Positions 2,059-37,879 of a DNA stretch of 64,000 nt are shown here, in pieces. Under the pieces are notes generated by a model. The model was not told the DNA's origin, made no database searches, and saw only the letters and a list, made by a program, of their open reading frames with translations. This DNA comes from Stenotrophomonas maltophilia. GTDB lineage: Bacteria; Pseudomonadota; Gammaproteobacteria; Xanthomonadales; Xanthomonadaceae. The stretch covers positions 2,334,001 to 2,398,000 of the forward strand of contig NZ_CP015612.1 of NCBI RefSeq assembly GCF_002138415.1. Reading direction: 5' to 3'. Each line of letters starts with the position of its first letter. The first letter of the stretch is position 1. Position numbers and translations under genes: made by a program.

Positions 2059-2094
2059 CACCACCCTGCCCGGTTCTCTCCCTACACTGGAGCG

Positions 2095-5430: not shown

Positions 5431-5434
5431 CGAT

Positions 5435-6109
5435 TCAGGGGCTGCGCGACTCTTCGATCTGGCGGGAGGGGTCGGCCAGGCCCATTTCATGCAGCACCCG
5501 GATTGCCTGCGCACGATTGCGGACCCCAAGCCGTTCCATGATGCGGGTCATGTGCGCCTTCACCGTTCGCAGTTGTACACCAAGCCGATCGGCAATCTGC
5601 TTGTTGAGCAGCCCCTCGGCCACCAGGCTCAGCACCCGGTACTGATGTGCGGACAGGCTGGCCAGCCGCGCAGCGAGGTCGGCATCCTTGCTGAAGGGCG
5701 CCACGCGCGCCACCGGCTCACGCAGCAGTGCCGGTATCCAGCGCTCGCCCTCCAGTACCGACTGCAGTGCCGCCTGCAGCTCGTTCAGGCCCGAGCTCTT
5801 GGGCAGATAGCCAGCAGCACCAAGGTCGATGGCGCGACGGATCACCTGCGGCTCTTCATTGGCCGAGACGATGATGATCGCCAGCCCTGGCTGCAGTGCG
5901 CGGATGGTGGCCAGCCCAGCCAGGCCATGATTGCCCGGCATATGCAGGTCGAGCAGCATCAGGTCGATCTGTTGGCGTTCAAGCACCTCAAGCACGCTGT
6001 CCAGCGCGTCGGCCTCGCTGATCTGCAGATCGGCAACCGCCTCTTCGGCCGCGCGATGCAGTGCGGCGCGGAACAAAGGGTGATCGTCGGCAATGAGCAG
6101 GGTTGGCAT
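5435..6109 (-). CDS. LuxR/NarL-family response regulator (CrbR-like)
   Basis: A 224-residue two-component regulator. The receiver has acidic residues 8-9 (IADDHPLF) and phospho-acceptor Asp54 in LLDLHMPGN. The C-terminal LuxR-type helix-turn-helix spans about 155-215 (VLSLVAEGLLNKQIADRLG). I chose the ATG at 6109, which begins directly with the receiver; an upstream frame would add 42 residues without family similarity and overlap the divergent gene. It is convergent with the hybrid kinase and divergent from the acyl-CoA synthetase, so it probably receives phosphate from that kinase and binds the palindrome at 6148-6163 to control the ligase gene and possibly itself. Known CrbR/ErdR relatives activate acs-type genes. 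Confidence 0.9.
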   Translation of the reverse strand: MPTLLIADDHPLFRAALHRAAEEAVADLQISEADALDSVLEVLERQQIDLMLLDLHMPGNHGLAGLATIRALQPGLAIIIVSANEEPQVIRRAIDLGAAGYLPKSSGLNELQAALQSVLEGERWIPALLREPVARVAPFSKDADLAARLASLSAHQYRVLSLVAEGLLNKQIADRLGVQLRTVKAHMTRIMERLGVRNRAQAIRVLHEMGLADPSRQIEESRSP

Positions 6110-6147
6110 GTCCAGGCGAGAGTAGCAAATCGTCCGCTTTTGGGAAG

Positions 6148-6163
6148 GCGTACCTAGGTACGC
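6148..6163. promoter_or_regulatory. Perfect 16-bp palindrome in divergent promoter region (candidate CrbR-like operator)
   Basis: The sequence GCGTACCTAGGTACGC is its own reverse complement over all 16 bases. It lies in the 129-bp gap between the divergent response-regulator (start 6109) and acyl-CoA synthetase (start 6239) genes, 38 bp from the former and 75 bp from the latter. The TACC...GGTA inverted halves are of the kind bound by NarL/LuxR-type dimers. Position and symmetry make it the best candidate binding site for the adjacent regulator; binding is inferred, not shown. Confidence 0.55.
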
Positions 6164-6238
6164 TGGCGCCAGGCGGGCGTGCAGATAGTGTGGTGGCATG
6201 AAGGGCGTCATCCGATGCACCGCCCACGAGGACACACC

Positions 6239-7885: not shown

Positions 7886-8070
7886 GGAAAGCGCATTGGT
7901 TGTAGAACGGGCGGCCACCGATACCGTTCAGCCCCGTTCAATCCTGCAAGGAGCTAGCGCACTGAATCACAGTACGACAGGTATACTCCGGACTATCGTA
8001 GCGGACGGAGCCGCCTGAAGCCGACATGGCGTCAGTCCGTTTCGAACGCACGCTTTCCAAGGGAAGGATG

Positions 8071-10263
8071 ATGCTGACGGCAGAGGAATTTGTTGCGCGA
8101 GTCATTGCAGGAGACGAGCCGGTAGCCGGAATGTCTGTATCCGGCGCGGTGAAGATCAGAAATCAGCAGCTCAAGAACACCGATTGGTCGGGCTGCCGAC
8201 TGGATGGCCCCCTGACTCTCATCGGATGTTCCTCCGGCCCTCTCACGCTGCGCGGAGCCTCTATTGATGGCCGGATCAGCATACGGGATCTGGCATTCAC
8301 CAGTGGTGGTCTGTCGATGCGTGGAGCGATCTGCCGCGGGGGTGTGGAGCTGATAGACATCAATCGGTCCTGTGCACGCTCGCATGTCTTCTTTCAGGGC
8401 GATCGGGGGCCCGACCTCACTCTGGAGTACTCCGGCCTGGATCTTATAGGCATTGAGGTGTCGGGAGGTTTGACGGTCACGCCGAAAGCAGGGGAGTTTC
8501 TCGGCAATGCGGTCTGTCTCGACTACGCAAGAATCAGCGGCCCGACCAGTATCGGAGAGGGGCATCACAACGTAGCGAATGTCTTTGTCTCTTTCGCAAA
8601 GCTGGAAGGCTCTCTGAACATCTTTCTGGCACATGAATCGAATTCAACGCAATTCGTTATTTTCGAAAGGCTTGAGTGCCTCGGAAACGTAACCGTCCAA
8701 CTTAAGGAAGGCGAGTCTTCCAAACGCATCTATGGTCGCGCCAGCGCCGTTCATGGGGATCTGAGAATTGTCGCTGCCCGCGACAACGGTACCCACGTGA
8801 TTGGAAAGTATGAATGCATCAGCATTGACGGAAGCCGTATCGACGGCACGCTGCAGATAGTCGACATGGCGCCTGCTCAGAGAAGCAATGGCGGCAGCAT
8901 AGCTGCGTCGAGCGTCCACTCCGGCTCAGTTCTTATCGACCAGGTTGAGGCGGAGAGCATCCGTTTCTATGGCTGCGTCGTCCAGCGAGATGTTGCGCTG
9001 AGCAAAGTCAAGACAGGCGACCTGGACTTCTACGGACTGACCGCGACGGACATCACCCTCCTGGGAGTTCAGCAGACTCCCGCGCGCCAACTTACAGTTG
9101 ATCTGCGCCGCGCCCGGATAGCAAATCTTGTCTGCGTCGAGGGCCTTGTCGCAAAACAGCTGTACCTTGGTTACTCGATGGTAGGTGCAACAAGGTTGAT
9201 CAGCGCGCAGCTGGAGGAATTCATCCTCAGATCCACGACTGTTGAACAGTACGTTCGAGTAATCTCCAGTGAGATACAGAGGATTGAAGCCACATCCGTG
9301 CGCGGCGCCGCGGCACTGGAGGTTTACGACGCAGCCTGCAATGGCGTTGATATCAAGGACGCCCGACTGGCAGACTTTGCGAAGAACTTGAGGTCAGATC
9401 TACGCGATTGTGATCCCTCAGAGGGTCGGCGATGCATGCGCGAGCTATGGGAACTGCGGGCGATATCAAAGATCAACTCGATCGATCTATCTGGTGGCAG
9501 TTGGTCGAGCGTCAATCTGATCCACGCCTACTTTGATTGTACCGCCTCCTCCACTGATGCATGTGTCAGTGCGAAAGGACTCAGGGTCTCAGGGGCGTTG
9601 AATGCAGTAGCCAGCCAGTTTGAGAATTCCAAGCGTACTGCACTTGACCTTGGTGACAGTGTCATTGAAGAGGTCAGCTTTGGAGGCCATCTACCGACAC
9701 CACTGAAGTTCTCTGCGGCGAGAATTGCGTCCTGGGGCATTGCCAGGGAAGATGCCGAGGGGTTCATGGGAGTTATCAACGCATCTATTGAGTTTGATCG
9801 AGCTGCCTGCATTGAATTTGAGCAGCGACTTGAGAACTCCGGGAAGCTCTCAGAAGCCGATCGTTTCCATGTCATGTGGAGGCGCAAGGAGGCCGGCATA
9901 CTGCCACTTTGGAGGCGTTCCGTTTCCTCCGCCCACTACCATCTCCTTCGTTACGGAACCCGTAGCGGACAGGTTCTCCTCTATTGGAGCACAATCGCCC
10001 TGATCGCACTTCTCGTCGTGCTGCGCTTCTACAACACAGACTTTACTCCGGTCTCGAGCCATGTATTTATAGATGCTCTTCAACATGTACTACGTAGTAG
10101 CATTCCGATGATCGATCTCGGACTCAAGCCCCTCGGTGAAGTGCGGGCAGGCACCGTCTCCTACTGGGCACTTTTAGCGGTGCGTTTGATGGGCTGGGTT
10201 TGTTGGCCTCTTTTTCTGACCAGCCTCGTGGTCAAGCTATTGCCCAAACGCCACAGGGCCTAA
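8071..10263 (+). CDS. Membrane-anchored right-handed beta-helix / pentapeptide-like protein of unknown function
   Basis: About 730 residues. Residues 1 to about 560 are many rungs of roughly 20-25 residues with short hydrophobic strands and recurring G-A/S turns (for example LTLRGASIDGRISIRDL), as expected for a right-handed beta-helix related to pentapeptide or bactofilin-like repeats. A helical linker follows (CIEFEQRLENSGKLSEADRF), then a YGTRSGQVLLYW motif leading into a membrane helix at about 635-655, a short reentrant-like segment (SSIPMIDLGL), and a second helix near 698-722. This C-terminal module is seen in membrane-bound pentapeptide-repeat proteins; no enzyme motif is visible. Base composition is clearly lower in GC than its neighbours and codon use is mixed, suggesting horizontal acquisition. 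An ATG at 8026 would add 15 residues, but AAGGGA at 8059-8064 favours 8068/8071. The 185-bp upstream gap holds a possible -10 TATACT at 7982 without a good -35. Confidence 0.75.
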   Translation: MLTAEEFVARVIAGDEPVAGMSVSGAVKIRNQQLKNTDWSGCRLDGPLTLIGCSSGPLTLRGASIDGRISIRDLAFTSGGLSMRGAICRGGVELIDINRSCARSHVFFQGDRGPDLTLEYSGLDLIGIEVSGGLTVTPKAGEFLGNAVCLDYARISGPTSIGEGHHNVANVFVSFAKLEGSLNIFLAHESNSTQFVIFERLECLGNVTVQLKEGESSKRIYGRASAVHGDLRIVAARDNGTHVIGKYECISIDGSRIDGTLQIVDMAPAQRSNGGSIAASSVHSGSVLIDQVEAESIRFYGCVVQRDVALSKVKTGDLDFYGLTATDITLLGVQQTPARQLTVDLRRARIANLVCVEGLVAKQLYLGYSMVGATRLISAQLEEFILRSTTVEQYVRVISSEIQRIEATSVRGAAALEVYDAACNGVDIKDARLADFAKNLRSDLRDCDPSEGRRCMRELWELRAISKINSIDLSGGSWSSVNLIHAYFDCTASSTDACVSAKGLRVSGALNAVASQFENSKRTALDLGDSVIEEVSFGGHLPTPLKFSAARIASWGIAREDAEGFMGVINASIEFDRAACIEFEQRLENSGKLSEADRFHVMWRRKEAGILPLWRRSVSSAHYHLLRYGTRSGQVLLYWSTIALIALLVVLRFYNTDFTPVSSHVFIDALQHVLRSSIPMIDLGLKPLGEVRAGTVSYWALLAVRLMGWVCWPLFLTSLVVKLLPKRHRA

Positions 10264-10407
10264 CAGACACGGACGCAGCGAGGCGCGTACCACTCTTCAG
10301 TGATCACCTCTCAGCGGGTCGCTAGTTCGCATGCGCAGCCAGCCAAGGCCAGAGCCCGGCACTGGCACGGCAGACGACGCGCAACAAGCTGCGCTCAGGA
10401 CGGTCGC

Positions 10408-11151
10408 TCAGATCCGCGTCGTCGCCATGAACCGCTCGCGGTCCTGCTGCGTGCGGCGGCGGATCTCCTCCAGCGCCTGGCTTTCGGTCGCTTCCAGCAT
10501 CGCTTCGAACAGGCGCTGGAAGTGATGGCGCATGGCATTGCGTGCGGCCACCGGATCACGCGCACGCAAGGCCTCGAAGATCGCCATGTGCTCGTCGGCA
10601 CGGCTGGCGCCATCGTCATGGCAGACCCGCGAATAGACCTCGGTCACGCGCGGCAGCTCGCTGCGCATGCGCCAGATCTGCTGCACGAAGTACTCCACCA
10701 CCGGATTGCCTGACAGACGGGCAATGGTCAGATGGAAACGGCGATCGTACTCGCCGGCTTCCGCGTCGCTCAGGTCGCGACGGCACAGCGCCTCCGCCAG
10801 CACCTGCAGCTCGGCGATGCCGGCATCATCCAGGTTGCTGGCGGCCAGGGCGGCAGCCTCGGCCTCGAACACCGCGCGGGCGGCGGTGAGGTCGAAGGCA
10901 CTGACATCCGGCAACCCACCCGGAGCCTGCGTCGGGCGCGGCTTCACATGCACGCCCGAGCCGATGCGGATGGCGATCCAGCCCTGTGCTTCCAGTGCGA
11001 TCTCGGCCTCGCGGATGGTCACCCGGCTGACACCGAACCGTTCGGCCAGTTCACGCTCGCCCGGCAGCCGCGAGCCCGGCGGAAATTCGCCGTCCTCGAT
11101 CAGCTTGCGGAGCTTGGCAGCGATGGTCTGGTAAAGGCGGTTGGCGGACAT
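10408..11151 (-). CDS. GntR-family (FadR/UxuR-type) transcriptional regulator of the alginate locus
   Basis: A 247-residue regulator. Residues 1-70 form the GntR winged helix (PPGSRLPGERELAERFGVSRVTIREAEIAL is split across its recognition helix), and about 95-220 the all-helical FCD ligand domain with metal-binding His residues (RFHLTIARLSGNP and the later MRHHFQRLF). FCD regulators of this kind (FadR, UxuR/ExuR, alginate regulators) usually repress sugar-acid catabolic genes until an intermediate such as a keto-deoxy acid or uronate binds. It lies 102 bp downstream of the TonB receptor gene on the same strand, opposite the lyase operon. Candidate target half-sites of the UxuR kind lie at 14224-14339. 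Ligand is inferred from context. Confidence 0.9.
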   Translation of the reverse strand: MSANRLYQTIAAKLRKLIEDGEFPPGSRLPGERELAERFGVSRVTIREAEIALEAQGWIAIRIGSGVHVKPRPTQAPGGLPDVSAFDLTAARAVFEAEAAALAASNLDDAGIAELQVLAEALCRRDLSDAEAGEYDRRFHLTIARLSGNPVVEYFVQQIWRMRSELPRVTEVYSRVCHDDGASRADEHMAIFEALRARDPVAARNAMRHHFQRLFEAMLEATESQALEEIRRRTQQDRERFMATTRI

Positions 11152-11253
11152 GCGGCTGACCCTTGGCGATTCCCTCCGGGTCCCTGCCCTGCCACCGCGG
11201 CCGGCAAGGGTCCGGTTGGAGCGACGGCGCGACCACTGGCCGCGCCGCCCTGT

Positions 11254-14145
11254 TCAGAACTTGTATCGTACACCGAAATACGCACGCCGCCCGTAGGTCA
11301 CCACTTCGCGGAAGTTCCCATAAAGCGGCTGGTAGGCCACGCGCGGCTCGTTGGTCAGGTTCATCAGTTCCAGCGACAGCGACAACTGCTTGTTCACCCG
11401 GTAGCGCAGGCGCAGGTCGACGCTGGTGTTGTCATCGTAGTAGCGGTTCTGCTGCGCGGTGTTGCCGGTGAAGTCCTGGTAGTAGTGCGAGCGGAACTTG
11501 CCGATGGCCTGGATGTTGAAGCGCCCAACGTCCCAGTAGATCGAGCCGGACAGCACGTGCCGCGAGAAACCACTGAGACCCGCCGGCGGCACGATCGCCG
11601 GAATGATCGTGCCATCACTGGCCAGCTGTTCGCCCAGTCGTGAGTCCTGGGTCTGATAGTCCGCATCGGCGTAGTTGTAGCTGACCTTGAAACCCAGCCC
11701 GTCGAACGGCTTGGGCAGGTACGACAGTCGATGCGTGGCCGTCACCTCGAAGCCGGTCAGCGTGCTGTTCTCGTCGGTGGTTACCTGCTGCCGCACCGGT
11801 ACGGTCACGCTCTGGCCGTCGATGGTGTAGGTCTCCGGCACCAGCGCAGTGGCGGTGCCGCCGTTGAACTGCTTCCAGTACACCGCGCCGGCCAGCATCG
11901 TGTCCGGGTTCGGGTACCACTCCAGTGACAGGTCGCCGTTCCAGGACATCAGCGGCTGTGCCGCTGGGTTGCCACTGGCACTGATGTCATCCAGCGCATC
12001 GGCCAGGTTGCCGTAGGTAGCGTCGCTGCTGACGTTGATGGTGCGCCCCGCTCCCAGGGCCGAAATGTCCGGACGGGACATCGCGCGGTAGGCGCCGACC
12101 CGCAGCAGGACATCCGGCCGCAGCTCGAACGCGGCGTTCAGGCTGGGCAGCAGCTTGTCGTTGCCCGCCTTGAACACCTGGGTGCTGTAGTCGCCGGTAG
12201 GCTGCAGGCGGATCGTGCCGTCGCCGTTGTCTTCAATGCGCAGGCCGGTACGCACCCCCTCGGAGCGCACATCGGTCTTCACCCAGCGCAGGCCCAGGTT
12301 ACCGGTCACCGGCAGCCCGAACAACGTGCTGCTGAACTCGCCCATCAGGTAGAGCGCGCGGGTCTTCTCGGTGATATCGACATTGTTCGGATCCTGGAAG
12401 CCCGTGTCCAATCCGCTGTCGAGGCTGCCACGGAACGACTGATACAGACAGTTCGGGTCGAAGTACGCCCAGGACGAAATCGTGTTGCCGCTTGCGGCAT
12501 CCATGAAGTCATCCTGTGGGAACGGCGCGCGGCAGGCCTGGTTGGCAGCGATGATCTTCGCCTTGTCGGCTGCCACACGCTGATCGTAGTCAGTCACCAG
12601 AGTGTTGTCGCGCAGGCGGTAGTCGGCCTGGCTGGCGCGCACGCCGCCCTTGATGCGGGTGAAGAAGCCGGACTCCGGCATGAAGCTGGCATCGAAGCGG
12701 CCGGCCTTGATCTTGTGGTCGTTCTCCGTTGCGCTGGAGGTGACGCGCGCCGCGCCGGTGTAGGCGTCCCAGTTGTTGGGGTCGAAGTTCGGCGCCAGGG
12801 CAACACTGGGTACTTCGCCATGCCAGTCCCAGTCGTAGTCCACGTACCCGGTGGCGCCACTACTGATGCCGGGGACGATGGCGTTGTTGACGTCGCGCTG
12901 GTTGGCGCGCAACCGGGTCATGCGCTCGCTGTCGAGGCGATTGGTGTGCGAGTAGGAAAGATCGGTGGACAGCTCCCACGCCGGGGTCGGGCGCAGGATC
13001 AGGTTCAGGCCGCCGCCGGTGTACTCCTCCCCACGCCAGTAGCGGTTGGAGGTGGAATCAATCGAGGTGCTGCCGTGCAGGTGGCGCACGATGCCTTCCT
13101 CGTCAACCTCGCGCTGGGTGATGCCGCGGCGAGCGTTGGACAGGCTCAGGTCACTGCGGTTCTCGTACCAGTTGCGCTGGGTATGCTCGAAATCGACATT
13201 CAGCTCGACCACGTCATTGGGCCGCCACTGCAGCGCGGCAAACTCGCTCTGGCGATCATTGCGCTCCTGCTTGAGGCGGTAGATGCGACTGCTCGGCACC
13301 AGGTAGTAAGGCGCGCCGTTGGCGATGGCCTGTGCGCTGACCTCGTTGCAGTTGGCATTGGACACGTTCTGCGTGCCGTCGCAGGCATACCAGGTGGAAC
13401 CGCTGGTGATGCTCTCTTCCGGATCGGTACCATCCAGGCGCTGGAAACCCAGCGAAATGCCCAGCTTCTGCCCATTGCCGAACTCGAACTGGTCGATGTA
13501 GCTGGCGGTGCCGCGATAGCCGATGCCATCGTCGTCGCGGTACTTCTTGTCATACTCGGCCCAGCTGCCACGTAGATCGATCTGCGCCGAGCGCTTGCCG
13601 TATTCCAATGGCCGTACCGTTTCCAGGCCAATGGTACCGGCCACGCCGCCTTCGATGATGTCGGCTCGCTGGGTCTTGTAGATGGCCACCGTGTTGATCA
13701 GCTCGGCCGGGAACATATTGAAGTTCACCGAGCGGTCGCCGCTGCCATTGGTGATTTCGCGGCCGTTGAAGTTGGTGCTGCTGAGAAAGGCGCCCAGGCC
13801 ACGGATCGAGATCTCAGAGGCACCGGTCTTGTCGCGGGTCGAGGCGGCACCGGTCAGAGTCTCGATGGCATCGGCCAGCGACGGCGCCGGCAGGTCGCCG
13901 ATGTCGTCTGCGGAGAGCACATCGGCAATGACCGTATCGTCGCGCTTCTTGTTGATCGAACTCTGCATGGACTCGCGGATGCCGGTGACCTGCACCTGGT
14001 CCAGCGTGGTGGGATCCTGCCCTGCCGCGTCCTTGCTGGATTGCGCCTGGGCCGTGGGCAGGCCCGCCAGCACGGCGAGCAGCGCCACGATCAGGGGTGT
14101 GGGGGACAACGAGATGCTGTGCACTGCTCCGGCGGGTCGCCGCAT
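11254..14145 (-). CDS. TonB-dependent receptor, probable alginate oligosaccharide importer
   Basis: A 963-residue outer-membrane receptor. The start at 14145 follows a strong GGAGGA site and begins a signal peptide (LIVALLAVLAGLPTAQAQS). Next come a plug domain (VTGIRESMQSSINKKRDDTVIADV; GAASTRDKTGASEISIRGLG) and a barrel ending FGVRYKF. The size and plug features match the large carbohydrate-type TonB receptors of Xanthomonas and Caulobacter rather than siderophore receptors. It is divergent from the PL6-PL17-transporter operon, across 241 bp that contain three UxuR-like half-sites, so it very probably imports alginate oligomers into the periplasm where the lyases act. Substrate is inferred from the neighbours. 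Confidence 0.9.
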   Translation of the reverse strand: MRRPAGAVHSISLSPTPLIVALLAVLAGLPTAQAQSSKDAAGQDPTTLDQVQVTGIRESMQSSINKKRDDTVIADVLSADDIGDLPAPSLADAIETLTGAASTRDKTGASEISIRGLGAFLSSTNFNGREITNGSGDRSVNFNMFPAELINTVAIYKTQRADIIEGGVAGTIGLETVRPLEYGKRSAQIDLRGSWAEYDKKYRDDDGIGYRGTASYIDQFEFGNGQKLGISLGFQRLDGTDPEESITSGSTWYACDGTQNVSNANCNEVSAQAIANGAPYYLVPSSRIYRLKQERNDRQSEFAALQWRPNDVVELNVDFEHTQRNWYENRSDLSLSNARRGITQREVDEEGIVRHLHGSTSIDSTSNRYWRGEEYTGGGLNLILRPTPAWELSTDLSYSHTNRLDSERMTRLRANQRDVNNAIVPGISSGATGYVDYDWDWHGEVPSVALAPNFDPNNWDAYTGAARVTSSATENDHKIKAGRFDASFMPESGFFTRIKGGVRASQADYRLRDNTLVTDYDQRVAADKAKIIAANQACRAPFPQDDFMDAASGNTISSWAYFDPNCLYQSFRGSLDSGLDTGFQDPNNVDITEKTRALYLMGEFSSTLFGLPVTGNLGLRWVKTDVRSEGVRTGLRIEDNGDGTIRLQPTGDYSTQVFKAGNDKLLPSLNAAFELRPDVLLRVGAYRAMSRPDISALGAGRTINVSSDATYGNLADALDDISASGNPAAQPLMSWNGDLSLEWYPNPDTMLAGAVYWKQFNGGTATALVPETYTIDGQSVTVPVRQQVTTDENSTLTGFEVTATHRLSYLPKPFDGLGFKVSYNYADADYQTQDSRLGEQLASDGTIIPAIVPPAGLSGFSRHVLSGSIYWDVGRFNIQAIGKFRSHYYQDFTGNTAQQNRYYDDNTSVDLRLRYRVNKQLSLSLELMNLTNEPRVAYQPLYGNFREVVTYGRRAYFGVRYKF

Positions 14146-14223
14146 GGTTTCCTCCTCCCAAAGGATCGCCTGCATGCCAGGCGTGGGACGCAGCTTCGGC
14201 ATGGCGACATGAAAATGTCAACC

Positions 14224-14339
14224 AATTGGTATGCGATTGTTCAAATGCCTTTTATCCATACCAGTTGATCGCAATTTAATGTGCTGCTGCAGCATGACTT
14301 TGCGCGAAAGCTGGCTTACAACACACCCGGAAGTGGTAT
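14224..14339. promoter_or_regulatory. Cluster of UxuR-like half-sites between receptor and alginate lyase operon
   Basis: Three related half-sites lie in the divergent gap: AATTGGTAT at 14224-14232, its inverted variant ATACCAGTT at 14258-14266, and AAGTGGTAT at 14331-14339. The known operator of the GntR-family hexuronate regulators UxuR/ExuR has the form AATTGGTATACCAATT, so each is a good half-match. A small hairpin-like inverted repeat GACAT-GAAA-ATGTC sits just beside them at 14206-14219. The region is AT-rich compared with its flanks and must hold the promoters of both transcripts. Regulation by the GntR protein at 10408-11151 is inferred. Confidence 0.5.
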
Positions 14340-14386
14340 GCAGACCCACCCTGAAACGACGGCCCGACCGTCCCTGGAAGGATTTC

Positions 14387-15826
14387 ATGCGCATTTACCC
14401 GCTGGCGCGTCACCTGCCCAACAATCCATCACTTGTTTGCCTGGCCACTGGCCTGGTCATGTGCCTGACCACTTCAGCGGCAAGTGCAGCCAGCTGGCTC
14501 GTCCACGATGTCGCTGAGTTCACTACCGCCGCATCAGCGCTGCAGCCCGGCGATGAGATCGTGCTGGCTGACGGCATCTGGAACGATGCCCGGTTGCTGC
14601 TGAAGGGCCAGGGCACGGCGGCCGCGCCGATCGTGCTGCGCGCGCAGACCGCCGGCAAGGTCGTCCTCAGCGGGCGCTCGGACCTGCGCCTGGCGGGGAG
14701 CTACCTGCAGGTATCCAACCTGGTGTTCCGCAACGGCTATACGCCGGGTGATGCGGTGGTGGCGTTCCGCGAATCCAGCAAGGCGGTGGCCCGCCACAGC
14801 CGGGTGACCGGCCTGGTGATCGATGACTACACCAACCCCGATGCCAGCGACCAGGACTACTGGGTATCGCTGTATGGCAGCAACAACCGGTTGGATCAAA
14901 GCCAGCTGCGCGGCAAGACCAATGCCGGGCCGACCGTGGTGGTGGTGCGCGATGCCACCCAGGGCCTGGACAACCAGCACCGTATCGACCACAACTGGTT
15001 CGGGCCGCGCCCGGCGCTGGGCGTCAACGGTGGCGAAACCCTCCGCGTCGGCACCAGCGACACCTCGTTGAGCGATTCCAACAGTACGGTGGAGAACAAC
15101 TGGTTCGAAGGCTGCGACGGCGAGACCGAGATCATCAGCAACAAGTCCGGCGGCAATACCTACCGCGGCAACGTGTTCTACCGCTCGGCCGGCGCGCTCA
15201 CGCTGCGCCATGGCAACGGCAACCGGGTGATCGACAACGTCTTCCTGGGTGATGACAAGGCCGGCACCGGTGGCGTGCGCATCATCAATGCCGACCAGAC
15301 CGTCAGCAACAATTACTTCGAGCGACTGGCCGGCTCCAGCAACCGTTCCGCGCTGGCGGTGATGGACGCGCAGGCCGATCCGCCGCTGTCCGGCTATGCG
15401 CCGGTGGTGAATGCCACGATCAGCCGCAATACCTTCGTGGATGTGGCGAAGATCAGTTTCGGCGTCGGCCATGACGAGGCCAAGGGCATCGTGGTCGCCG
15501 CCAGCAACAGCCACTTCAGCGCCAACCTGATCGTCAACCGCACCAGCAGGAACCCGCCCAATGCCGCCAGTTCGCTGGCCGGCATCGACTTCAGCGGCAA
15601 CGTGCAGTCACCGGCAGCCAGCAACGTATTCCCGGGAGGCGTAGAGGGCCGTGGCGTCAGCCTGCAGCAGGCTGCCAGCGGATTGTGGGTTGCCACGCCT
15701 GTCCTGCCCGCCGTGGGCGCCGAGCCTGCCCTGGCGATGACCGCGCGCGAGGCGACCGGCGTCGACTGGTATCCCAAGGTGGGCGAGGTTGCCCTGTCAC
15801 GCACCAGCACCGGAGTGGATCGATGA
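14387..15826 (+). CDS. Polysaccharide lyase family 6 (alginate lyase)
   Basis: A 479-residue exported lyase. The start at 14387 follows GGAAGG and gives a signal peptide ending TSAASAASW. The rest is a right-handed parallel beta-helix (LVHDVAEFTTAASALQPGD at the N cap, many GN/N turns). The PL6 catalytic pair is recognisable: Lys in IISNKSGGN and Arg in LTLRHGNGNRV. PL6 enzymes (alginate lyases and chondroitinase B) cleave uronate-containing chains by beta-elimination; with PL17, DEH reductase and KDG kinase genes next door, alginate is the likely substrate. Its stop overlaps the start of the PL17 gene (ATGA). It is probably endolytic or G/MG-acting, complementing PL17, but specificity cannot be read. 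Confidence 0.92.
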   Translation: MRIYPLARHLPNNPSLVCLATGLVMCLTTSAASAASWLVHDVAEFTTAASALQPGDEIVLADGIWNDARLLLKGQGTAAAPIVLRAQTAGKVVLSGRSDLRLAGSYLQVSNLVFRNGYTPGDAVVAFRESSKAVARHSRVTGLVIDDYTNPDASDQDYWVSLYGSNNRLDQSQLRGKTNAGPTVVVVRDATQGLDNQHRIDHNWFGPRPALGVNGGETLRVGTSDTSLSDSNSTVENNWFEGCDGETEIISNKSGGNTYRGNVFYRSAGALTLRHGNGNRVIDNVFLGDDKAGTGGVRIINADQTVSNNYFERLAGSSNRSALAVMDAQADPPLSGYAPVVNATISRNTFVDVAKISFGVGHDEAKGIVVAASNSHFSANLIVNRTSRNPPNAASSLAGIDFSGNVQSPAASNVFPGGVEGRGVSLQQAASGLWVATPVLPAVGAEPALAMTAREATGVDWYPKVGEVALSRTSTGVDR

Positions 15827-27169: not shown

Positions 27170-30100
27170 TTACGGCGTTACGGTCAAGGCGACACGGACA
27201 GCGGTCTTCGGCGTGCTCGGGTCATTGCTGCCGACGCAGACGAAGCCCGAATAGCTACCCGGCGCGAGGCCGCTGGCATTGATCTGCACCTGCGTGCTCT
27301 GGCTGCCGCCTGCGGAGATGCGGCCCAGGGCGCGGGTCGGTGTGCCGATCCAGCCGGCGCCGCAGGCGTTGCTTCCGCCCAACCCATAGGCCAGCCCTGG
27401 TGCGCCGGTGGTGGCGGACCAGGCACCGCTGCCATCCGGGTTGATGATCGCGCCGCGGTACACGTTGTCGCCGCTGGTCGCATTGAACCAGAACCAGCTG
27501 GTGGCCAGAGGCGCACGCACCGAGACCACCAGCCAGTAGCGGCCTGCGGGCAGGTTCACGTTCTGGCCCGCCGCGGCCATGTCCAGGTTGATCGTGGCCA
27601 GCGTGGCCGACGTTCTTACACCCGGCCCACTGACGGTGGAGGTATAGGTCCACACCGCCAACTGCGGGCTCGATTCAGGATTGCCCTCCGGATTGCCGCC
27701 GACATCACGGTAGATCGACCAGTTGATGTTGGTCGATGTCGCCAGCGTGCCACCGTTGACGAAGCCATCAGCGACGATGCGGGTGATGCCGGTGGCCTCG
27801 CCAAGGGTGAAGTCATCGGCGGCGAGCTGTGCACGCGCTCCCACCGTCGCGGCATCGGTGAAGCGCGTCGAGCGCCGTCCATTGGCGTTGTTCGCCGCCT
27901 GCGCCACCAGCGTACGGGTGCCCACTCCGGAATTGTCGATCTGCCATTCCAGCGGTGAACCGCCGGTATTGGCGATCTGCAGGTTTACCGCGCCGCTGCC
28001 ACCGGTTGGCAGGGTCAGCGTGTTCAACGGCGGCGTGGCGGCAATCTGCGGCGGCGGCACCGACACGGCGATCGGCAGGCGCAGCAGTGGCTGGCTGGTA
28101 TCACCCCCCTGCGGCGCCAGGGTCAGCCTGGCAAAGCGCCAGCTGCCATCGTTCGGTACCGAACCAGTGGTGACGATGATCCGCACCGACTTGCTTTCAC
28201 CTGGCGCCAGGGTGAACACCGATGGCGAGACGACCGCAGTCAGACCCTGCACCTTCGCGGTCCACGTCTGCCGGGTCGGCAGCACATTGCGGAACACGCG
28301 GGTGAAGCTGCAGCTGTCGGGGCAACTGCGCTTGCCCAGGCTGGCGATGTTGAGCGACGACACTTCACCACCATTGGCCGGATTGGCCCCCAGGAAGTTG
28401 GCCTTGGTCTCGTTCAGCACCAGCCCTGCCCGCAGTGCCTGGTCCACCTGGATGCGGCCCGCGCCCATCGCGAACGCGTCGGCCGGAGTGACACCATCTT
28501 CCTTCAGCACCTCCTGGCGTGCGGTCATCATCAATGCCGAGCGTGTCTCCTGCACGGTCCAGTCAGGACGCGCCTGGCGCAGCAGCGCGGCGGCACCAGC
28601 GTGATGCGGTGATGCCATCGAGGTGCCGTCCATCAGGCCGACGGCGTTCTCCGAACCGGTCACCTCATTGCCGGCGATCACGGCCAGCACGCGCACGCCC
28701 GGAGCGGTCACGTCCGGCTTGACCAGATCAAAGATTCCGGCAGGGCCGCGTGAACTGAAATCGCCCAGTACATCCGGCGTATTGCTGATCTTGCTGGCCG
28801 GATAGGCAATGCCGGCGGTGGCGTTGTTGCCAACGCTCGACGCAAAGGTCCGCAGTGCATCGGCGTCCGACTGGTCGATGGCGAAGGCGGGAATGGTCGC
28901 CCCGGCCACGTTGGGCAGGATGGGAGCCGGCTGGTTGTTTCCGATCAGCACGGCGATCGCTCCCGCCGCAGCGGCGTTGTTGACCTTGTCGCTGAAGTTG
29001 CACGAACCACGGCGGATCACCGCAACGGCGCCCTGGAAGGTGTTGGCCGGGAACGCCGCGCAGCCATCGTTGGCACTGTCGATGCCTGCACTGACACGCA
29101 GCGGCGTGGTTGCAGGAATCGGCGTTGCGAACGGCACGCCGCCCGAGCCTTCGGTCAGCAGGATGGCAGTGAGCGCCGGCGGCACGCTGCCGGGGCCGCT
29201 GACCGCAGCGAACAGCACGATGTCGCCGCGGCCATGCGTGGCCGCCGCAGTGCTGCCGGTCCAGGGTTCCAGATGGCCCATCGTGTTCGGACCCGGGCCG
29301 GAGTTGCCGGCCGAGGTGGCCACGTAGATACCGGCATCGGATGCATTGAGGAAGGCCAGCGAGACCGCCTCTCCCCACGGCGCGGTACCACCGGCAATGG
29401 AGTAATTGATGACGTCGACCACGCCATCGGCGAGAGCCTGGTTGACCGCTGCCAGCGTCGAGGTGTTGGGGCAGAAGCCGCGCCCGGTGGAGACCTCGGT
29501 GTAGCAGGCGTCGTAGGCGATGATGTTGGCGCGGGGCGCAACACCGGAAATGTGGATCTGGTTGCCACGGTAGGACGCAGTGTGCGGGTTGCCAGCGGCG
29601 GTGGAAGCGGTATGGCTGCCATGACCGTTGGTGTCACCAAAACCAGGCTCCTCGCGCACATCCGCAACGCCGCACTGGTTGCCCGGCGCACCGCAGACAA
29701 AGTCGTAGCCGCCAATCAGCTTGCTGTTGCAGCGACCTTCGTCGATGCCGCCCGGCGCGCAGGTACCGAGGTAGTTTCCTGCGCCCAGCGGATTGACGTG
29801 CTCGTAGCCATCCTCGGCACGGGCGGTGAAGGCCGGGCTGCCGAAGTTGATGCCCGAGTCGATGACGCCGACCACCACACCTTCGCCACGGAACGGCGTA
29901 GGTGTGCCGTTCCACAGCGCAGGTGCGCCGATCAACCCTGGACCGACGTCGGTGTCCTGCTCATACTCCCTGTACTCTTCGACCAGCTGCACATCGGGAA
30001 GTGCGCGCACGCGTTCTGCTTCCTGCGGGTTCATCTGCAGCACCGATGCGTTGATCGCATGCTGCATGCGCCGTTCGACCTTCACGCTGCGGCCGAGCGC

Positions 30101-30526
30101 GGCATTGATGCGGGCCTCGTGCTGTACCTGGCGGTCAGCGAGGAAGCGCACATAGTCCTGCGAGCGTGCACCCCTTACAGCGATGCGCGGTGTCGGCGCA
30201 TTGCCGGTGGCCGCCGCTGCACGCGCGGCGCTGGCGGAGGGGCGCATGCGTTCCGGTGCCGCGAGGCCCTGGATGTCGCCCTTGTAGGTGGCGAGCGGCT
30301 CCTCGCGATAGACCACGATGTAGCGGTTGGAGAGCTCGGCGAAGCCGCTGCCCGGACCGCTTGCCGCAGGCCCGGATGGATTGCCGGCGCGTGCGTCCAC
30401 GGAGGGATTGCCTGTCTTCGACTGGGCGCCGGTACTGCGTATGCCCACGGCAGCGGCGGCCAATGCGGCACCCGCCACCAGGGTCAGTGCAACCCATTTG
30501 CTTCGTTTGATCCATGCATTGCGCAT
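27170..30526 (-). CDS. Large secreted subtilisin-like serine protease (S8) with PA domain
   Basis: An 1118-residue exported protease. It begins with a signal peptide or anchor (WVALTLVAGAALAAAAVG), then an I9-like propeptide (RYIVVYREEPLATYKG ... VERRMQHAINASVLQ). The catalytic triad is Asp near 219 (VVGVIDSGINFGS), His near 301 (GHGSHTASTAAG) and Ser near 635 (DGTSMASPHHAGAAALL). A PA insert occupies about 460-560 (GAVAVIRRGSCNFSDKVNNA). After it come a Fn-like domain and C-terminal immunoglobulin-like or PPC-type beta domains ending with GYSGFVCVGSNDPSTP. The architecture is that of large extracellular subtilases of Xanthomonadaceae, which digest host or environmental protein. A long 338-bp gap upstream separates it from the divergent metallopeptidase gene. 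Confidence 0.92.
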   Translation of the reverse strand: MRNAWIKRSKWVALTLVAGAALAAAAVGIRSTGAQSKTGNPSVDARAGNPSGPAASGPGSGFAELSNRYIVVYREEPLATYKGDIQGLAAPERMRPSASAARAAAATGNAPTPRIAVRGARSQDYVRFLADRQVQHEARINAALGRSVKVERRMQHAINASVLQMNPQEAERVRALPDVQLVEEYREYEQDTDVGPGLIGAPALWNGTPTPFRGEGVVVGVIDSGINFGSPAFTARAEDGYEHVNPLGAGNYLGTCAPGGIDEGRCNSKLIGGYDFVCGAPGNQCGVADVREEPGFGDTNGHGSHTASTAAGNPHTASYRGNQIHISGVAPRANIIAYDACYTEVSTGRGFCPNTSTLAAVNQALADGVVDVINYSIAGGTAPWGEAVSLAFLNASDAGIYVATSAGNSGPGPNTMGHLEPWTGSTAAATHGRGDIVLFAAVSGPGSVPPALTAILLTEGSGGVPFATPIPATTPLRVSAGIDSANDGCAAFPANTFQGAVAVIRRGSCNFSDKVNNAAAAGAIAVLIGNNQPAPILPNVAGATIPAFAIDQSDADALRTFASSVGNNATAGIAYPASKISNTPDVLGDFSSRGPAGIFDLVKPDVTAPGVRVLAVIAGNEVTGSENAVGLMDGTSMASPHHAGAAALLRQARPDWTVQETRSALMMTARQEVLKEDGVTPADAFAMGAGRIQVDQALRAGLVLNETKANFLGANPANGGEVSSLNIASLGKRSCPDSCSFTRVFRNVLPTRQTWTAKVQGLTAVVSPSVFTLAPGESKSVRIIVTTGSVPNDGSWRFARLTLAPQGGDTSQPLLRLPIAVSVPPPQIAATPPLNTLTLPTGGSGAVNLQIANTGGSPLEWQIDNSGVGTRTLVAQAANNANGRRSTRFTDAATVGARAQLAADDFTLGEATGITRIVADGFVNGGTLATSTNINWSIYRDVGGNPEGNPESSPQLAVWTYTSTVSGPGVRTSATLATINLDMAAAGQNVNLPAGRYWLVVSVRAPLATSWFWFNATSGDNVYRGAIINPDGSGAWSATTGAPGLAYGLGGSNACGAGWIGTPTRALGRISAGGSQSTQVQINASGLAPGSYSGFVCVGSNDPSTPKTAVRVALTVTP

Positions 30527-34005: not shown

Positions 34006-34236
34006 TCAGCCCGCAGCGCCCAGTGCGGCGCTGCGGCGCTTTCCGGTGTAGTGCAACGCGAACAGGTACAGGCCGGTGAACAGTTGCAGGAACAGTGGCG
34101 GCAGCGGCGAATAGGTGATCCACGCCGCAGGCTCGCCCTGCCCCAACCCACGCGCCACGAAGTTGGCGACCACGGCCAGGGTGAACACGATCGAGGTCCA
34201 ACGATGCACGGGCCGTGCCCAGGCACCGCGGCTCAT
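34006..34236 (-). CDS. Small two-helix membrane protein, hypothetical
   Basis: A 76-residue inner-membrane protein with two helices (TSIVFTLAVVANFVARGLG and LFLQLFTGLYLFALHY) and a basic C-terminus (GKRRSAALG). Its start overlaps the VOC gene's stop by four bases (ATGA on the minus strand), so the two are translated together. No function is known to me. Confidence 0.75.
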   Translation of the reverse strand: MSRGAWARPVHRWTSIVFTLAVVANFVARGLGQGEPAAWITYSPLPPLFLQLFTGLYLFALHYTGKRRSAALGAAG

Positions 34237-34658
34237 TGCCGACGCCTCGCCTCGGAACGGGCCTCGATCATCTTCCAGCCATTGCCCGATGGGTCGCGGA
34301 ATCCGGCGTCCACGGCGCCATAGCGCTCGATCGGCTCCTGGGTGAATTCCACGCCCTGTGCCAGCCATTGCGTATAGCGCGCCTGGCAGTCATCCACGGC
34401 CAGCACCAGGGGCGGCATTGCGCCTTTGGCCACCAGCTGCCGCAACGCCTGCGCCGTGGCTGCGTCGTGGGTGGGCGGGCCTGGCACGAACAGGCCCAGC
34501 TGGAAACCGTCCTGGCCCGGGCTGCGTACCGTCAGCCAGCGGTAACTGCCGTTGCGTACATCGGTATGCACTTCGAAGCCGAGCTTGCCAACGTAGAATG
34601 CGAGTGCTTCATCCTGGTCGCGCACATATAGGCCGACCGTGTTCACAGTGTTCGTCAT
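34233..34658 (-). CDS. VOC-family (glyoxalase/bleomycin-resistance-like) protein
   Basis: A 141-residue protein with two betaalphabetabetabeta units: TVGLYVRDQDEALAFYVGKLGFEV at the N-terminus, and later DDCQARYTQWLAQGVEFTQEP and YGAVDAGFRDPSGNGWKMIEA, the last giving the conserved DPDGN-like turn and metal Glu. Proteins of this group bind small molecules or perform metal-assisted lyase, isomerase or dioxygenase chemistry; many are uncharacterised. The start at 34658 follows GGGAGG, better than upstream options. It is coupled to the small membrane protein gene. Confidence 0.87.
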   Translation of the reverse strand: MTNTVNTVGLYVRDQDEALAFYVGKLGFEVHTDVRNGSYRWLTVRSPGQDGFQLGLFVPGPPTHDAATAQALRQLVAKGAMPPLVLAVDDCQARYTQWLAQGVEFTQEPIERYGAVDAGFRDPSGNGWKMIEARSEARRRQ

Positions 34659-34766
34659 GGGACCTCCCTCTGGTGGGGTCCACGTTAGCAACCCGTTACC
34701 GGCGGCGCTTCTCCAAAACTGCGGCATCGGACGGCGACCGTCCACATGAATGCGGGAATGCGTGAT

Positions 34767-34800
34767 AGTGCGCATTTTCAAGAAATATTAAGTGCGCATT
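34767..34800. repeat. Direct repeat of AGTGCGCATT upstream of the fusion gene
   Basis: AGTGCGCATT occurs at 34767-34776 and again at 34791-34800, 24 bp apart, close to two helical turns. The intervening DNA is AT-rich (AAGAAATATTA). Position, 100-130 bp before the fusion gene, suggests an activator site or promoter architecture. Confidence 0.4.
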
Positions 34801-34801
34801 A

Positions 34802-34817
34802 TGTGATATCAATCACT
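34802..34817 (+). promoter_or_regulatory. Clp/CRP-type (or FNR-type) binding site
   Basis: TGTGA-TATCAA-TCACT at 34802-34817 matches the CRP/Clp consensus TGTGA-N6-TCACA with one mismatch. The centre also resembles an FNR box (TTGAT-N4-ATCAA) with one mismatch in each half (GTGAT ATCA ATCAC). It lies 79 bp before the fusion gene start. Clp is the global CRP homologue of Xanthomonadaceae and responds to c-di-GMP. Which regulator binds is open. Confidence 0.55.
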
Positions 34818-34895
34818 CAAAGCGTTTCAGCAGGCGTGCGATAAGGGCCGCGACTCCCCACCCCGCTGCACTTCTGCACCTCCCTGGAGCGCGCC

Positions 34896-37373
34896 ATGCA
34901 GGATGTCTCGCCACACCAATGCAAGGTGGTATCCGAACGAAACTGGTCGCTCAGCACCTTCATGGAATTCTATGAGCGCGTGCTGAGCCCACGAATATTC
35001 CGTCCCTACGGAAAACTGCTGGCGCAGGAGATCGCTGCGGATATCCGTGCAGCACCCGGTGCCACCGACATCCTGGAAGTCGCCTGTGGAACAGGGGTGA
35101 TAACGGCCAACCTGTACCAGGACCTGGCCAAGCCGCTGGGCCTCCGACTGGTCGCCACGGACCTGTCGGCGATCGCGGTGGACGTGGCCCGGAACATATT
35201 GAGCGCCGAGCTCCAACGCGACGTCCCACTGATTCCCGATGTCGACATGGCCGAGCTGCCCTTCGCGGACAACAGCTTCGACATCATCGTGTGTGGTTTC
35301 GGCTTGATGTTCCCTCCCGACAAGGCCCGGGTTGCACGCGAATTCAGGCGCGTACTTCGCCCAGGAGGCAGGGTCTACGCTACGGCGTTCCACTACAACC
35401 AGTTGTTTGAACTGGTACGCCAGCAGTCGCAGAGGCACTTCGGCATGCCATCGCGATTGATGGATGCGGCCCTGAGCCTGACCGATCCGTCCCCCATCAC
35501 GCGCGCCTTCGCGATCGAGGGGCTGGACCGCAGCGACGGTGAATGCGCCGCGCTGCGCCCGCTCGCGTTCTCGCTTGGCGAAGCTGATGCCCGCGAGTTC
35601 CTCTTCAACGCGTGCATCCTGCTGGAGGAGTTCAATCAGTGCGATACCCCCAGCCGGGAACGCTATCTCGATGCGATGATGGAGGCGATCCATGTACAGG
35701 TCCCCGACCAGTGCTATCGGGTGGAGGCCTGGCTGATACGCGGCACGGTGGGTCCGACGGGCGTGGCCCAGCCAACGGTAATTCCGCCCGCTGATTTCCG
35801 GCCCTTGCTCGAGTTCCGCAACCTCTCGCGCCTGACGACGTCGCCGTGCCCTGTGGGCTCGCAAGCTCCATCCTGCGCGCAGGCCGTGACAGCCTTCCAC
35901 GATGCCAAGGTACAGTTCCTCGCCGACCATCCCGCTTATCCCGAGCACCAGGTCGAGGCAATGCGCCAGCAGGAGTACGCGCGGCTGGATGAGCAACAAG
36001 TGACCTACCTGGATCATGTTGGCGGAACGCTGCCACCTGACAGCCTGCTTGAGCAGGACTACCAGGCGCTCAAGAAGACCATTCTCGGCAATCCGCACAG
36101 TGGATCGAAGGCGTCCCATGCTGCCTACCAGAAGGCCTGCGATGAGATCTACGCCTTCTTCGGATGCACGTCGGAGGAGTACGAGATCATCTTTACCGCC
36201 AATGCCAGCAGTGCGATCCGGCTGGTGGCCGAATCATTCCCCTTCCAGCAGGGTTCGCAGCTACTGCTGACCAAGGACAACCATACATCGGTGCATGGCT
36301 TGCGGGAGTACGCCACCTCGAAGGGGGCGATGGTGAAGTACATCCCCCTGGACGATGACCTGCTGCTGCATGACGGGCTGATGGAGCGTGCGTTGCAACG
36401 GCTCCAGCGCGGTGCGCCGCACCTGCTGGCATTCCCGGCGCAGTCCAATGCGACCGGCGTCCGCCACGATCTGGCGTGGATCGGGAAGGCCCAGCAGCAG
36501 GGCGCGTGGGTGCTGTGTGATGCGGCGGCCTGGGTTCCGCAATCACGACTGGACTGCACGATCCATCGTCCCGACTTTGTCGTAGCGTCCTTCTACAAGA
36601 TCTTCGGCTACCCCACCGGCGCAGGTTGCCTGCTCGCCCGACGGGCCGCCCTCGGCATGCTAAAGCCCCCCTCCTTCGCGGGCGGAGGCGTCTGCTACTA
36701 CTCGGGACCGTGGTCGCCCACCGACCGCCTGCTCTACCGCGACGCCGGCCAGCGTTTCGAAGTGGGCACGCCCAACTATGCGGCCTTCCCTGCGATCGCC
36801 AGAGGCTTCGAGTTCATCGCCGCGATGGGCGGCGTAGAAGCGCTGGCCAAGCGCTCAAGCGCCCTGGCGGCGTGGACAGACGCGCGATTGTCATCCCTTC
36901 GCCACCGCATCAAGGGTGATCTGCCGCTGTGCCGGATCTATGGGCCGCCTCCCGCGCTGAAGGGCGCAACACTGATGCTGAACTTCTTCGACTGCTATGG
37001 CTCGATCATGCCGCACGCACGCATCAAGCGCGCCGCAGAGCGTTTCGGCATAACCCTGCGCAACGGCTGTTTCTGCAACCTCGGTGCCGTGCAGCAGGCG
37101 ACCTACGCCACGGCAGGCGCCGAACACTGTGAACTGGACAAGACCGGGAAGATCCTCGACTGCAAGACCTTCGACGAGAAGATCCTCGAGAAGGGAGATT
37201 GTGGTGCGGTCAGGATTTCATTCGGGCTCGGATCCAATTTCGCCGACGCCTACCGCTTCTGCCTGTTCGCCAGCTGCCTGCTGGATACTGATGTTTCCGG
37301 GCTGGAGGACCCGGCAGAGGAGACGCCAGCGGAGACAGCGGACACGCTGATCGCCGGCACCGTGCCAGCCTGA
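34896..37373 (+). CDS. Fusion: SAM-dependent methyltransferase + class V PLP domain like Moco sulfurase (NifS-type)
   Basis: An 825-residue two-domain protein. Residues 1-300 are a class I methyltransferase: motif I LEVACGTGVITANL near 61-72, DLSAIAVDVAR, and the post-motif FDIIVCGFGLMFPP. Residues 365-800 are a class V aminotransferase/NifS fold close to the N-terminal domain of eukaryotic molybdenum cofactor sulfurase (MOCOS/ABA3): a TYLDHVGGTLPPDSL start, PLP-binding Lys near 567 in FVVASFYKIFGYPTGAG, and RNGCFCNLGAVQ near 721, equivalent to the persulfide Cys region RTGCFCNPGAC. The MOSC domain of MOCOS is absent. Such domains mobilise sulfur from cysteine; joined to a methyltransferase it could make an S-methylated product, but this is speculation. 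It is monocistronic and has a Clp/FNR-like site upstream; GC is somewhat lower than its neighbours. Confidence 0.85.
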   Translation: MQDVSPHQCKVVSERNWSLSTFMEFYERVLSPRIFRPYGKLLAQEIAADIRAAPGATDILEVACGTGVITANLYQDLAKPLGLRLVATDLSAIAVDVARNILSAELQRDVPLIPDVDMAELPFADNSFDIIVCGFGLMFPPDKARVAREFRRVLRPGGRVYATAFHYNQLFELVRQQSQRHFGMPSRLMDAALSLTDPSPITRAFAIEGLDRSDGECAALRPLAFSLGEADAREFLFNACILLEEFNQCDTPSRERYLDAMMEAIHVQVPDQCYRVEAWLIRGTVGPTGVAQPTVIPPADFRPLLEFRNLSRLTTSPCPVGSQAPSCAQAVTAFHDAKVQFLADHPAYPEHQVEAMRQQEYARLDEQQVTYLDHVGGTLPPDSLLEQDYQALKKTILGNPHSGSKASHAAYQKACDEIYAFFGCTSEEYEIIFTANASSAIRLVAESFPFQQGSQLLLTKDNHTSVHGLREYATSKGAMVKYIPLDDDLLLHDGLMERALQRLQRGAPHLLAFPAQSNATGVRHDLAWIGKAQQQGAWVLCDAAAWVPQSRLDCTIHRPDFVVASFYKIFGYPTGAGCLLARRAALGMLKPPSFAGGGVCYYSGPWSPTDRLLYRDAGQRFEVGTPNYAAFPAIARGFEFIAAMGGVEALAKRSSALAAWTDARLSSLRHRIKGDLPLCRIYGPPPALKGATLMLNFFDCYGSIMPHARIKRAAERFGITLRNGCFCNLGAVQQATYATAGAEHCELDKTGKILDCKTFDEKILEKGDCGAVRISFGLGSNFADAYRFCLFASCLLDTDVSGLEDPAEETPAETADTLIAGTVPA

Positions 37374-37417
37374 TGCTCTGCGAGGGCCACTCCCTCAGGC
37401 GCATCGCGGGAGGTTGC

Positions 37418-37879
37418 TTACGCGAAGCGTTCGCTGGCAACTGCGGCGCGACGGCGCTTTTCCAGCACCGCAATGTTCAAGTCCGGGCGCTGCGCGGCAC
37501 GTGCGTGGCATTCCGGCACGCTGGCCGACGCCGCCTGGCCTGCACGCTCACGCTCACGCACATTGCCCGGGCTGCCACCGGTGATGTCTCGGAAGATGCG
37601 GCCAAAGGTACCCAGGCTGCTCCACCCGGTCTGCGCGGCGATTTCGGTGACCGGCAGGTCGGTGTCACGCAACATCGCCACGGCCCGTTCGATGCGCCGG
37701 CTGAGAAGATACCGATGCGGCGGCAGGCCGAATGCCTGCTTGAAAGAGCGCGCGAAATGCGCCGGCGACACCGCACTGACCTCGGCCAGGCGCGTGACTG
37801 GCCATTCCTCATGGCTGGCCCGGTCCATCCGATCCTTGGCACGCAGCAGGCGTCGCAGCAGTTCGGGGCTCTGGTTCAC
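37418..37879 (-). CDS. AraC-family transcriptional regulator (DNA-binding domain only)
   Basis: A 153-residue protein consisting almost only of the AraC double helix-turn-helix (residues about 8-105: VTRLAEVSAVSPAHFARSF and VTEIAAQTGWSSLGTFGRIF). The usual N-terminal ligand domain is missing; instead there is a basic, Arg-rich tail to residue 153. The start overlaps the LysR stop by four bases (ATGA), so they are co-translated. It may act with the LysR protein on the divergent genes at 38894-40812. Confidence 0.85.
   Translation of the reverse strand: MNQSPELLRRLLRAKDRMDRASHEEWPVTRLAEVSAVSPAHFARSFKQAFGLPPHRYLLSRRIERAVAMLRDTDLPVTEIAAQTGWSSLGTFGRIFRDITGGSPGNVRERERAGQAASASVPECHARAAQRPDLNIAVLEKRRRAAVASERFA

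Follow-up and report, generated by a model that had tools for sequence, protein, structure and literature searches.

What could be made by a single polypeptide that joins a methyltransferase to a sulfur-mobilizing enzyme? The question is raised by a gene in a 64,000-nucleotide stretch of Stenotrophomonas maltophilia DNA (contig NZ_CP015612.1, positions 2,334,001 to 2,398,000; here called the window), which at 34896-37373 on the + strand forms one uninterrupted frame from ATG to stop, with a GGAG at 34886-34889 ahead of it. Its 825 residues link a class I S-adenosylmethionine (SAM) methyltransferase (Pfam Methyltransf_25, residues 59-158, E 8.6e-17; UbiE, 49-169, 2.3e-16) to a class V, NifS-like domain of the pyridoxal 5'-phosphate (PLP) type (Aminotran_5, 371-731, 1.5e-38). 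An earlier note, made from the letters of this DNA, had described such a frame, and its landmarks are borne out: the SAM motif EVACGTG near residue 61 (E61-G67), the PLP lysine in SFYKIFGYPTG near 567 (K568), RNGCFCN near 721 (C725 at 37068-37070, C727 at 37074-37076), and the lack of a MOSC domain, for which Pfam gives no match in the protein at E <= 1. The frame stops at residue 825, shortly past the NifS fold. As the note also had it, the gene is monocistronic, because both flanking genes, a glyoxalase (34233-34694) and an AraC-type regulator (37418-37879), lie on the - strand. We tentatively read the protein as a self-contained two-step enzyme that would desulfurate cysteine to a persulfide and then S-methylate this sulfur itself, a reading that we hold at somewhat less than an even chance.

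The fusion is not an artefact of a frameshift or mis-assembly, because it recurs with its key residues in 50 further aligned proteins, 44-93% identical. These derive from a whole-protein search of about 5.8 billion proteins, in which 7992 candidates were scored and 80 matched: 55 fusions or fusion fragments (P0001-P0055), nine solo NifS-like proteins, two eukaryotic MOCOS proteins and 14 others, mostly of a single domain. Precomputed Pfam assignments give both domain families in 54 of the 55, P0050 having the PLP domain alone. The alignment comprises the window protein and 50 of these matches, leaving out P0001 (97% identical) and the incomplete P0049, P0050, P0053 and P0055. Invariant in all 51 rows are K568, C578, C600, C725, C727, C745, C756 and C769 in the NifS half, and E61, A63, G65-G67, D89 and D117 in the methyltransferase half, where C133 (50 of 51) and C240 (49 of 51) come close. 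Among the compared loci of other carriers, 10 of 11 hold an intact fusion, the copy in L143 being interrupted by a contig end. For nine carrier pairs, the ratio of nonsynonymous to synonymous substitution rates (dN/dS) is 0.10-0.26 over residues 12-290 and 0.08-0.21 over residues 345-800, and in all nine the dN of the linker (291-344) exceeds that of either domain. Such purifying selection on both halves argues that both seem to have been kept functional.

What can be discerned from the relatives of the NifS half? The nearest are solo bacterial MOCOS-like proteins of about 470 residues (459-487 among the matches; mostly from Chloroflexota in the loci compared), which are 39-44% identical. Seven aligned representatives share the SFYKxFGYPTG-type and GCFCN motifs with the fusion, but they carry no methyltransferase, lack C600 and C769, and fall outside the fusion clade. 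The two MOCOS matches (30-31%) likewise have the NifS-like domain, the PLP lysine and both GCFCN cysteines, but differ in carrying MOSC (PF03473, PF03476) and no methyltransferase. Thus C725 and C727 are common to the fusions, the solo proteins and MOCOS, and in this comparison C600 and C769 are confined to the fusions. We take C725 and C727 to correspond to the persulfide cysteines of ABA3/MOCOS. SufS/CsdB-type cysteine desulfurases are more remote, at 18-25% identity, and membership in plain SufS was rejected (NCBIfam TIGR01979, 114.7 bits against a cut-off of 475.1); among the NCBIfam matches listed (25 of 50), all are under their cut-offs. In PADLOC, DndA (52.6 bits) and SspA (55.9 bits) match residues 371-598 only. 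A desulfurase joined C-terminally to its sulfur user has a precedent in the metallopterin-dependent ergothioneine synthase (MES) of Caldithrix abyssi, whose N-terminal, sulfur-using partner is, in the part of the source available, a metallopterin module, in place of which Pfam finds a SAM methyltransferase in the fusion; the MES desulfurase is described there as NifS/IscS-like, whereas the NifS half of the fusion is of the MOCOS type (PMC9516567).

Judging by the invariant residues and the fold, the NifS-like domain would bind PLP on K568, remove the sulfur of L-cysteine (or the selenium of selenocysteine) with alanine leaving, and hold the sulfur as a persulfide on C725/C727. The second step is the less secure one: the sulfur might stay on the protein or be taken up, as hydropersulfide or sulfide, by a small carrier, and the fused methyltransferase might methylate it with SAM, which would yield a methylthio compound such as methanethiol or methyl persulfide. 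Persulfide S-methylation is chemically credible, as TPMT is reported, in the accessible portion of its source, to methylate hydrosulfide, polysulfides and persulfides (PMC13089183). Stenotrophomonas rhizophila Ep2.2, according to an excerpt, is reported to emit methanethiol, dimethyl sulfide and dimethyl disulfide (PMC10577304), which we count as no evidence for the present reading. The thiomethyl product, or thiolation and methylation of a metabolite, which the earlier note had proposed, is an interpretation that we find partly supported.

The methyltransferase model (residues 1-320) scores 88.5 in the predicted local distance difference test (pLDDT), and its best VIA-align matches are the fungal thiol S-methyltransferases TmtA and GtmA of Aspergillus fumigatus, narrowly above other fungal methyltransferases. 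These are stand-alone enzymes, GtmA acting on the dithiol gliotoxin. The Cys55-Cys80 pair that GtmA carries, in the part of its description available (PMC5356443), is seemingly not kept in the fusion, where by eye C64 fits Cys55 and A87 fits Cys80. Membership in UbiE/COQ5 was rejected (NCBIfam TIGR01934, 58.2 bits, cut-off 158.35), although Pfam PF01209 (UbiE) clears its looser cut-off (60.3 against 20.1). PADLOC adds a mad2 match of 43.3 bits over this half.

Several observations weigh against the two-step reading. TmtA and GtmA are 14% identical to the model, and their margin in Z units is 0.5 over OxaG, where a difference under 1 is a tie, and 1.7 over RoqN; Foldseek puts OxaG first, and the sequence profile puts phosphoethanolamine N-methyltransferases first (E 9e-24, 6e-22). 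Sharing a fold does not in itself demonstrate a function. Residues 593-625, in the NifS half, have a pLDDT below 50. Finally, a neighbour in Lysobacter suggests a larger and less general acceptor there, which leads to the strongest alternative.

This alternative, which we consider somewhat unlikely, has the NifS half supplying sulfur for a C-S bond on a specific metabolite (an amino acid, aldehyde or thioester), the methyltransferase then methylating this metabolite at an S, N or O atom. The patchy distribution of the gene resembles that of secondary metabolism, the profile matches of the methyltransferase half are largely small-molecule methyltransferases, and MES provides a desulfurase fusion precedent. 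Furthermore, in three of the four Lysobacter-genus carriers the fusion adjoins a nonribosomal-peptide-synthetase-like enzyme with adenylation, carrier and thioester reductase domains (A-T-R): immediately ahead of it and in the same orientation in L. antibioticus HS124 (L025) and in genome G338 (L114), and divergent from the fusion in L. enzymogenes ATCC 29487 (L024); it is not adjacent in G421 (L112). In HS124, a flavin adenine dinucleotide (FAD) oxidase, whose best model is BagK/FevA1 with a score far under cut-off, the A-T-R enzyme and the fusion follow on one strand within 7 kb. Possibly, the fusion and the A-T-R enzyme, in HS124 with the FAD oxidase, form a small biosynthetic cluster. Against a specific acceptor, the A-T-R neighbour is missing from the other compared loci, and no oxidizing or activating partner, which direct C-S bond formation normally needs, is fused to the protein. 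The Lysobacter gene pairings span 5477-12439 (L025), 9654-15247 (L114) and 3025-9194 (L024), and their A-T-R enzymes are single-module.

More generally, a comparison of the 11 loci from other carriers (blastp between predicted genes, E <= 1e-15) gave no general operon partner: seven have nothing but the fusion in common with the rest, the A-T-R enzyme recurs in L024 and L114, and a sigma-54 response regulator lies several genes off in both L028 and L112. As the fusion usually travels alone, it probably acts on widespread metabolites, which would be cysteine, SAM and perhaps a thiol. EgtD (PF10017) occurs in 11 of 17 carriers and MoCoBD_1 (PF02738) in 15, with no match in G053 (100% complete) and G816, so the fusion is not always accompanied by ergothioneine synthesis, nor by xanthine-oxidase maturation; FGE-sulfatase domains occur in all 17.

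The remaining alternatives are less probable. A selenocysteine lyase whose released selenide is methylated to methylselenol, for volatilization or detoxification, we regard as improbable: the scores of plain cysteine desulfurases are comparable, and no selenium gene was noticed by eye beside the fusion, no dedicated search having been made. A little more doubtful still is a C-S lyase like EgtE and OvoB, which act in ergothioneine and ovothiol synthesis, with the methyltransferase completing the pathway. The counts of EgtD and of FGE-sulfatase domains, which EgtB-type enzymes contain, speak for it, but EgtD is unmatched in six of the 17 carriers, in G000 a separate EgtD lies at 4.61 Mb and the fusion at 2.37 Mb, and the invariant GCFCN cysteines fit persulfide chemistry; Methyltransf_33, the EgtD family, is absent among the 12 Pfam matches of the fusion protein. 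Despite its MOCOS-type motifs and the 15 carriers with MoCoBD_1, the protein is very unlikely to be a molybdenum cofactor sulfurase for xanthine-oxidase-type enzymes, as MOCOS/ABA3 are, because it has no MOSC domain, two carriers have no MoCoBD_1 match, and the fusion is missing from 85 of 91 Stenotrophomonas genomes.

How did the gene come to lie where it does? The AraC neighbour is present in 11 of 31 Stenotrophomonas genomes, two of them with the fusion, and seven of the other nine loci were compared. Five of the seven continue across the site without the inserted segment (blastn), and in the remaining two the flanks have diverged and the fusion gene is not there. Aligned to any of the five empty sites, both boundary stretches fall on the same 24-36 bases and thus form an imperfect direct repeat. 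The base composition is ordinary (63.3% G+C against 65.6% for the whole window). Compared with the same-site carriers L116 and L023, the fusion gene has a dS of 1.07 and 1.29, six flanking genes being lower (0.22-0.83); compared with L021 it has 0.24, all six being higher (0.34-0.66). Being out of line with the flanking genes, these values argue that the history of the gene differs from that of its neighbourhood. In G105 the copy (L115) sits at another genomic place, where the direct repeat of the window was not found (best match, 10 mismatches in 23) and where an 11-bp flanking repeat may be due to chance. On these comparisons, the fusion is a single-gene insertion and horizontally mobile. 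Coordinates are collected in the table.

Table. Features of the fusion gene and its insertion site (window coordinates).
Feature	Position	Strand	Evidence
Left copy of imperfect direct repeat (up to 36 bp), insertion boundary	34688..34723	.	blastn against empty sites
Inserted segment (gene and own upstream region)	34724..37436	.	blastn; missing at same site in relatives
CRP/Clp-like palindrome TGTGATATCAATCACT, 94 bp before ATG	34802..34817	.	kept at -85 to -94 in 5/5 Stenotrophomonas regions scanned
Fusion gene, 825 residues (methyltransferase, linker, NifS-like PLP domain)	34896..37373	+	open reading frame; Pfam; 50 aligned homologues
Class I SAM methyltransferase domain with C-terminal cap, residues 18-286	34947..35753	+	Pfam; model; fold matches
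SAM motif E61-VACGTG-G67 plus D89, inside residues 18-286		+	
Variable linker, residues 290-345	35763..35930	+	pLDDT <50 at 313-322; raised dN
NifS-like fold-type-I PLP domain, residues 347-803	35934..37304	+	
K568 codon, PLP Schiff-base lysine (SFYKIFGYPTG)	36597..36599	+	invariant 51/51
C725-F726-C727 codons (GCFCN), presumed persulfide site	37068..37076	+	both Cys invariant 51/51
Right copy of imperfect direct repeat, in 3' end of AraC-type regulator gene	37437..37472	.	blastn against empty sites

The distribution is in keeping with such mobility. In genome samples drawn by the search tool, which overlap between surveys, the fusion gene is found in six of 91 Stenotrophomonas genomes (that of the window counted), in six of 345 genomes and two of 54 genera of the family, and, among 369 genomes of the class, only in the window's own genome, beside one NifS-only match. 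The Entomohabitans family (295 genomes) yields the query genome as sole carrier, and in the Myxococcus family five of 96 genomes carry the fusion, counting the query genome, which has a tandem pair, and with one copy cut by a contig end. Plasmids gave two NifS-only matches at about 40% identity, and one scan of viral contigs gave 12 stretches, one of them matching the methyltransferase core at 35%. Named carriers include Stenotrophomonas, Luteimonas, Lysobacter, Myxococcus, Corallococcus, Pyxidicoccus, Paraburkholderia, Serratia, Rahnella, Pectobacterium, Kosakonia, Enterobacter and Entomohabitans. Judging from these relatives, this is a conserved family that has been spread by gene transfer. 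In one Myxococcus contig (L144, G817:C66, shared with L026), two copies, 89% identical, stand in tandem (7695-10127 and 10493-12925). About 1.2 kb from the Lysobacter copy of L114 lies an integrase/DNA-invertase-type recombinase (7092-8453; phrog_95, phrog_125), and the Entomohabitans copy (L027, 13112-17843) adjoins VgrG-like, VRR-NUC and TsiV-type immunity proteins, probably incidentally.

In a maximum-likelihood tree of 84 NifS domains, a branch supported at 100/100 separates the 51 fusions from 31 solo bacterial proteins (24 of the 71 extracted loci and seven database proteins) and two MOCOS, with long branches flagged by the tool among the solo and MOCOS rows. This single clade makes one origin of the fusion probable. 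In a search with the methyltransferase alone (2723 proteins), relatives among the best 120 cover 39-78% of the query, mainly its Rossmann core, barring fusion pieces and the perhaps eukaryotic P0086 and P0088; the cap stretch with C240 is, by eye in 33 aligned rows, particular to the fusions. P0047, P0051, P0052, P0054, P0055 and P0086 look like eukaryotic fusions; some have long N-termini or inserts, their identity to others is low, and P0055 and P0086 stop in mid-domain where relatives go on. Two shortened fusion proteins on long contigs, P0050 (Klebsiella aerogenes) and P0053 (Lysobacter enzymogenes), might reflect gene decay or faulty annotation. Source names of the fusions ('aminotransferase class V-fold PLP-dependent enzyme', 'selenocysteine lyase/cysteine desulfurase/ubiquinone/menaquinone biosynthesis C-methylase UbiE', 'molybdenum cofactor sulfurtransferase') are generic.

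The cassette seems to carry its own predicted control site within Stenotrophomonas. The palindrome upstream of the gene is the sole site in the 64 kb with at most one mismatch to TGTGA-N6-TCACA, which we take to be the CRP consensus. All five Stenotrophomonas regions scanned (the sixth carrier, G059, was left out) keep GTGAT-N4-ATCAC at -85 to -94 with varying central bases, even at the relocated L115 copy; the other 10 upstream regions have at least three mismatches to a CRP-type site. Perhaps, then, the fusion is under CRP-like control in this genus. Of the Clp/FNR-like site that the earlier note had proposed, the CRP/Clp part stands, but what we presume to be the FNR consensus fits less well, all five regions departing from it at two positions.

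Both kinds of domain are known; in the open-licence PubMed Central literature, no account of their combination, its distribution or its cassette-like mobility was found among the matches listed. Cysteine desulfurases normally hand their sulfur on to carriers that are separate proteins. One that is built into the same chain as a methyltransferase suggests a single, defined product, a methylated sulfur compound, for which one purified protein would suffice as a direct test. The fuller proposal is that S-methylated sulfane sulfur, as methyl persulfide or methanethiol, is formed by one polypeptide straight from cysteine and SAM, and that proteobacteria, myxobacteria and probably also microbial eukaryotes carry it, as a one-gene mobile cassette in the two bacterial groups; as a whole this is possible but rather doubtful. 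If true, it would add an unrecognized way in which organisms produce methylated sulfur (or selenium), present in some Stenotrophomonas, Lysobacter, myxobacterial and enterobacterial strains and missing in others.

The fusion also gives the solo bacterial MOCOS-like proteins a fused functional partner from which to reason about their role. In 72 solo NifS loci, 71 of which gave an extracted NifS frame, a blastp comparison of the neighbours yielded a single, weak methyltransferase (L082, E 2.7e-4). MOSC did not turn up next to any of them within 3.5 kb, a weak test as the probe was one insect sequence. In L051, a PIG-L deacetylase with a cyclic nucleotide monophosphate-binding domain (1854-3050) ends about 50 bp before the solo Chloroflexota NifS match, and genes related to it, linked by blastp only, likewise precede the match by about 50 bp in L045, L054 and L068. 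The solo NifS of L059, on a contig titled as a Bordetella parapertussis metagenome-assembled genome (MAG), groups with that of a betaproteobacterial MAG among Chloroflexota proteins, and the title may be a mislabel. Elsewhere in the window, at 27170-30526 on the - strand, lies a large frame of 1118 residues, named by eye as a subtilisin-like serine protease.
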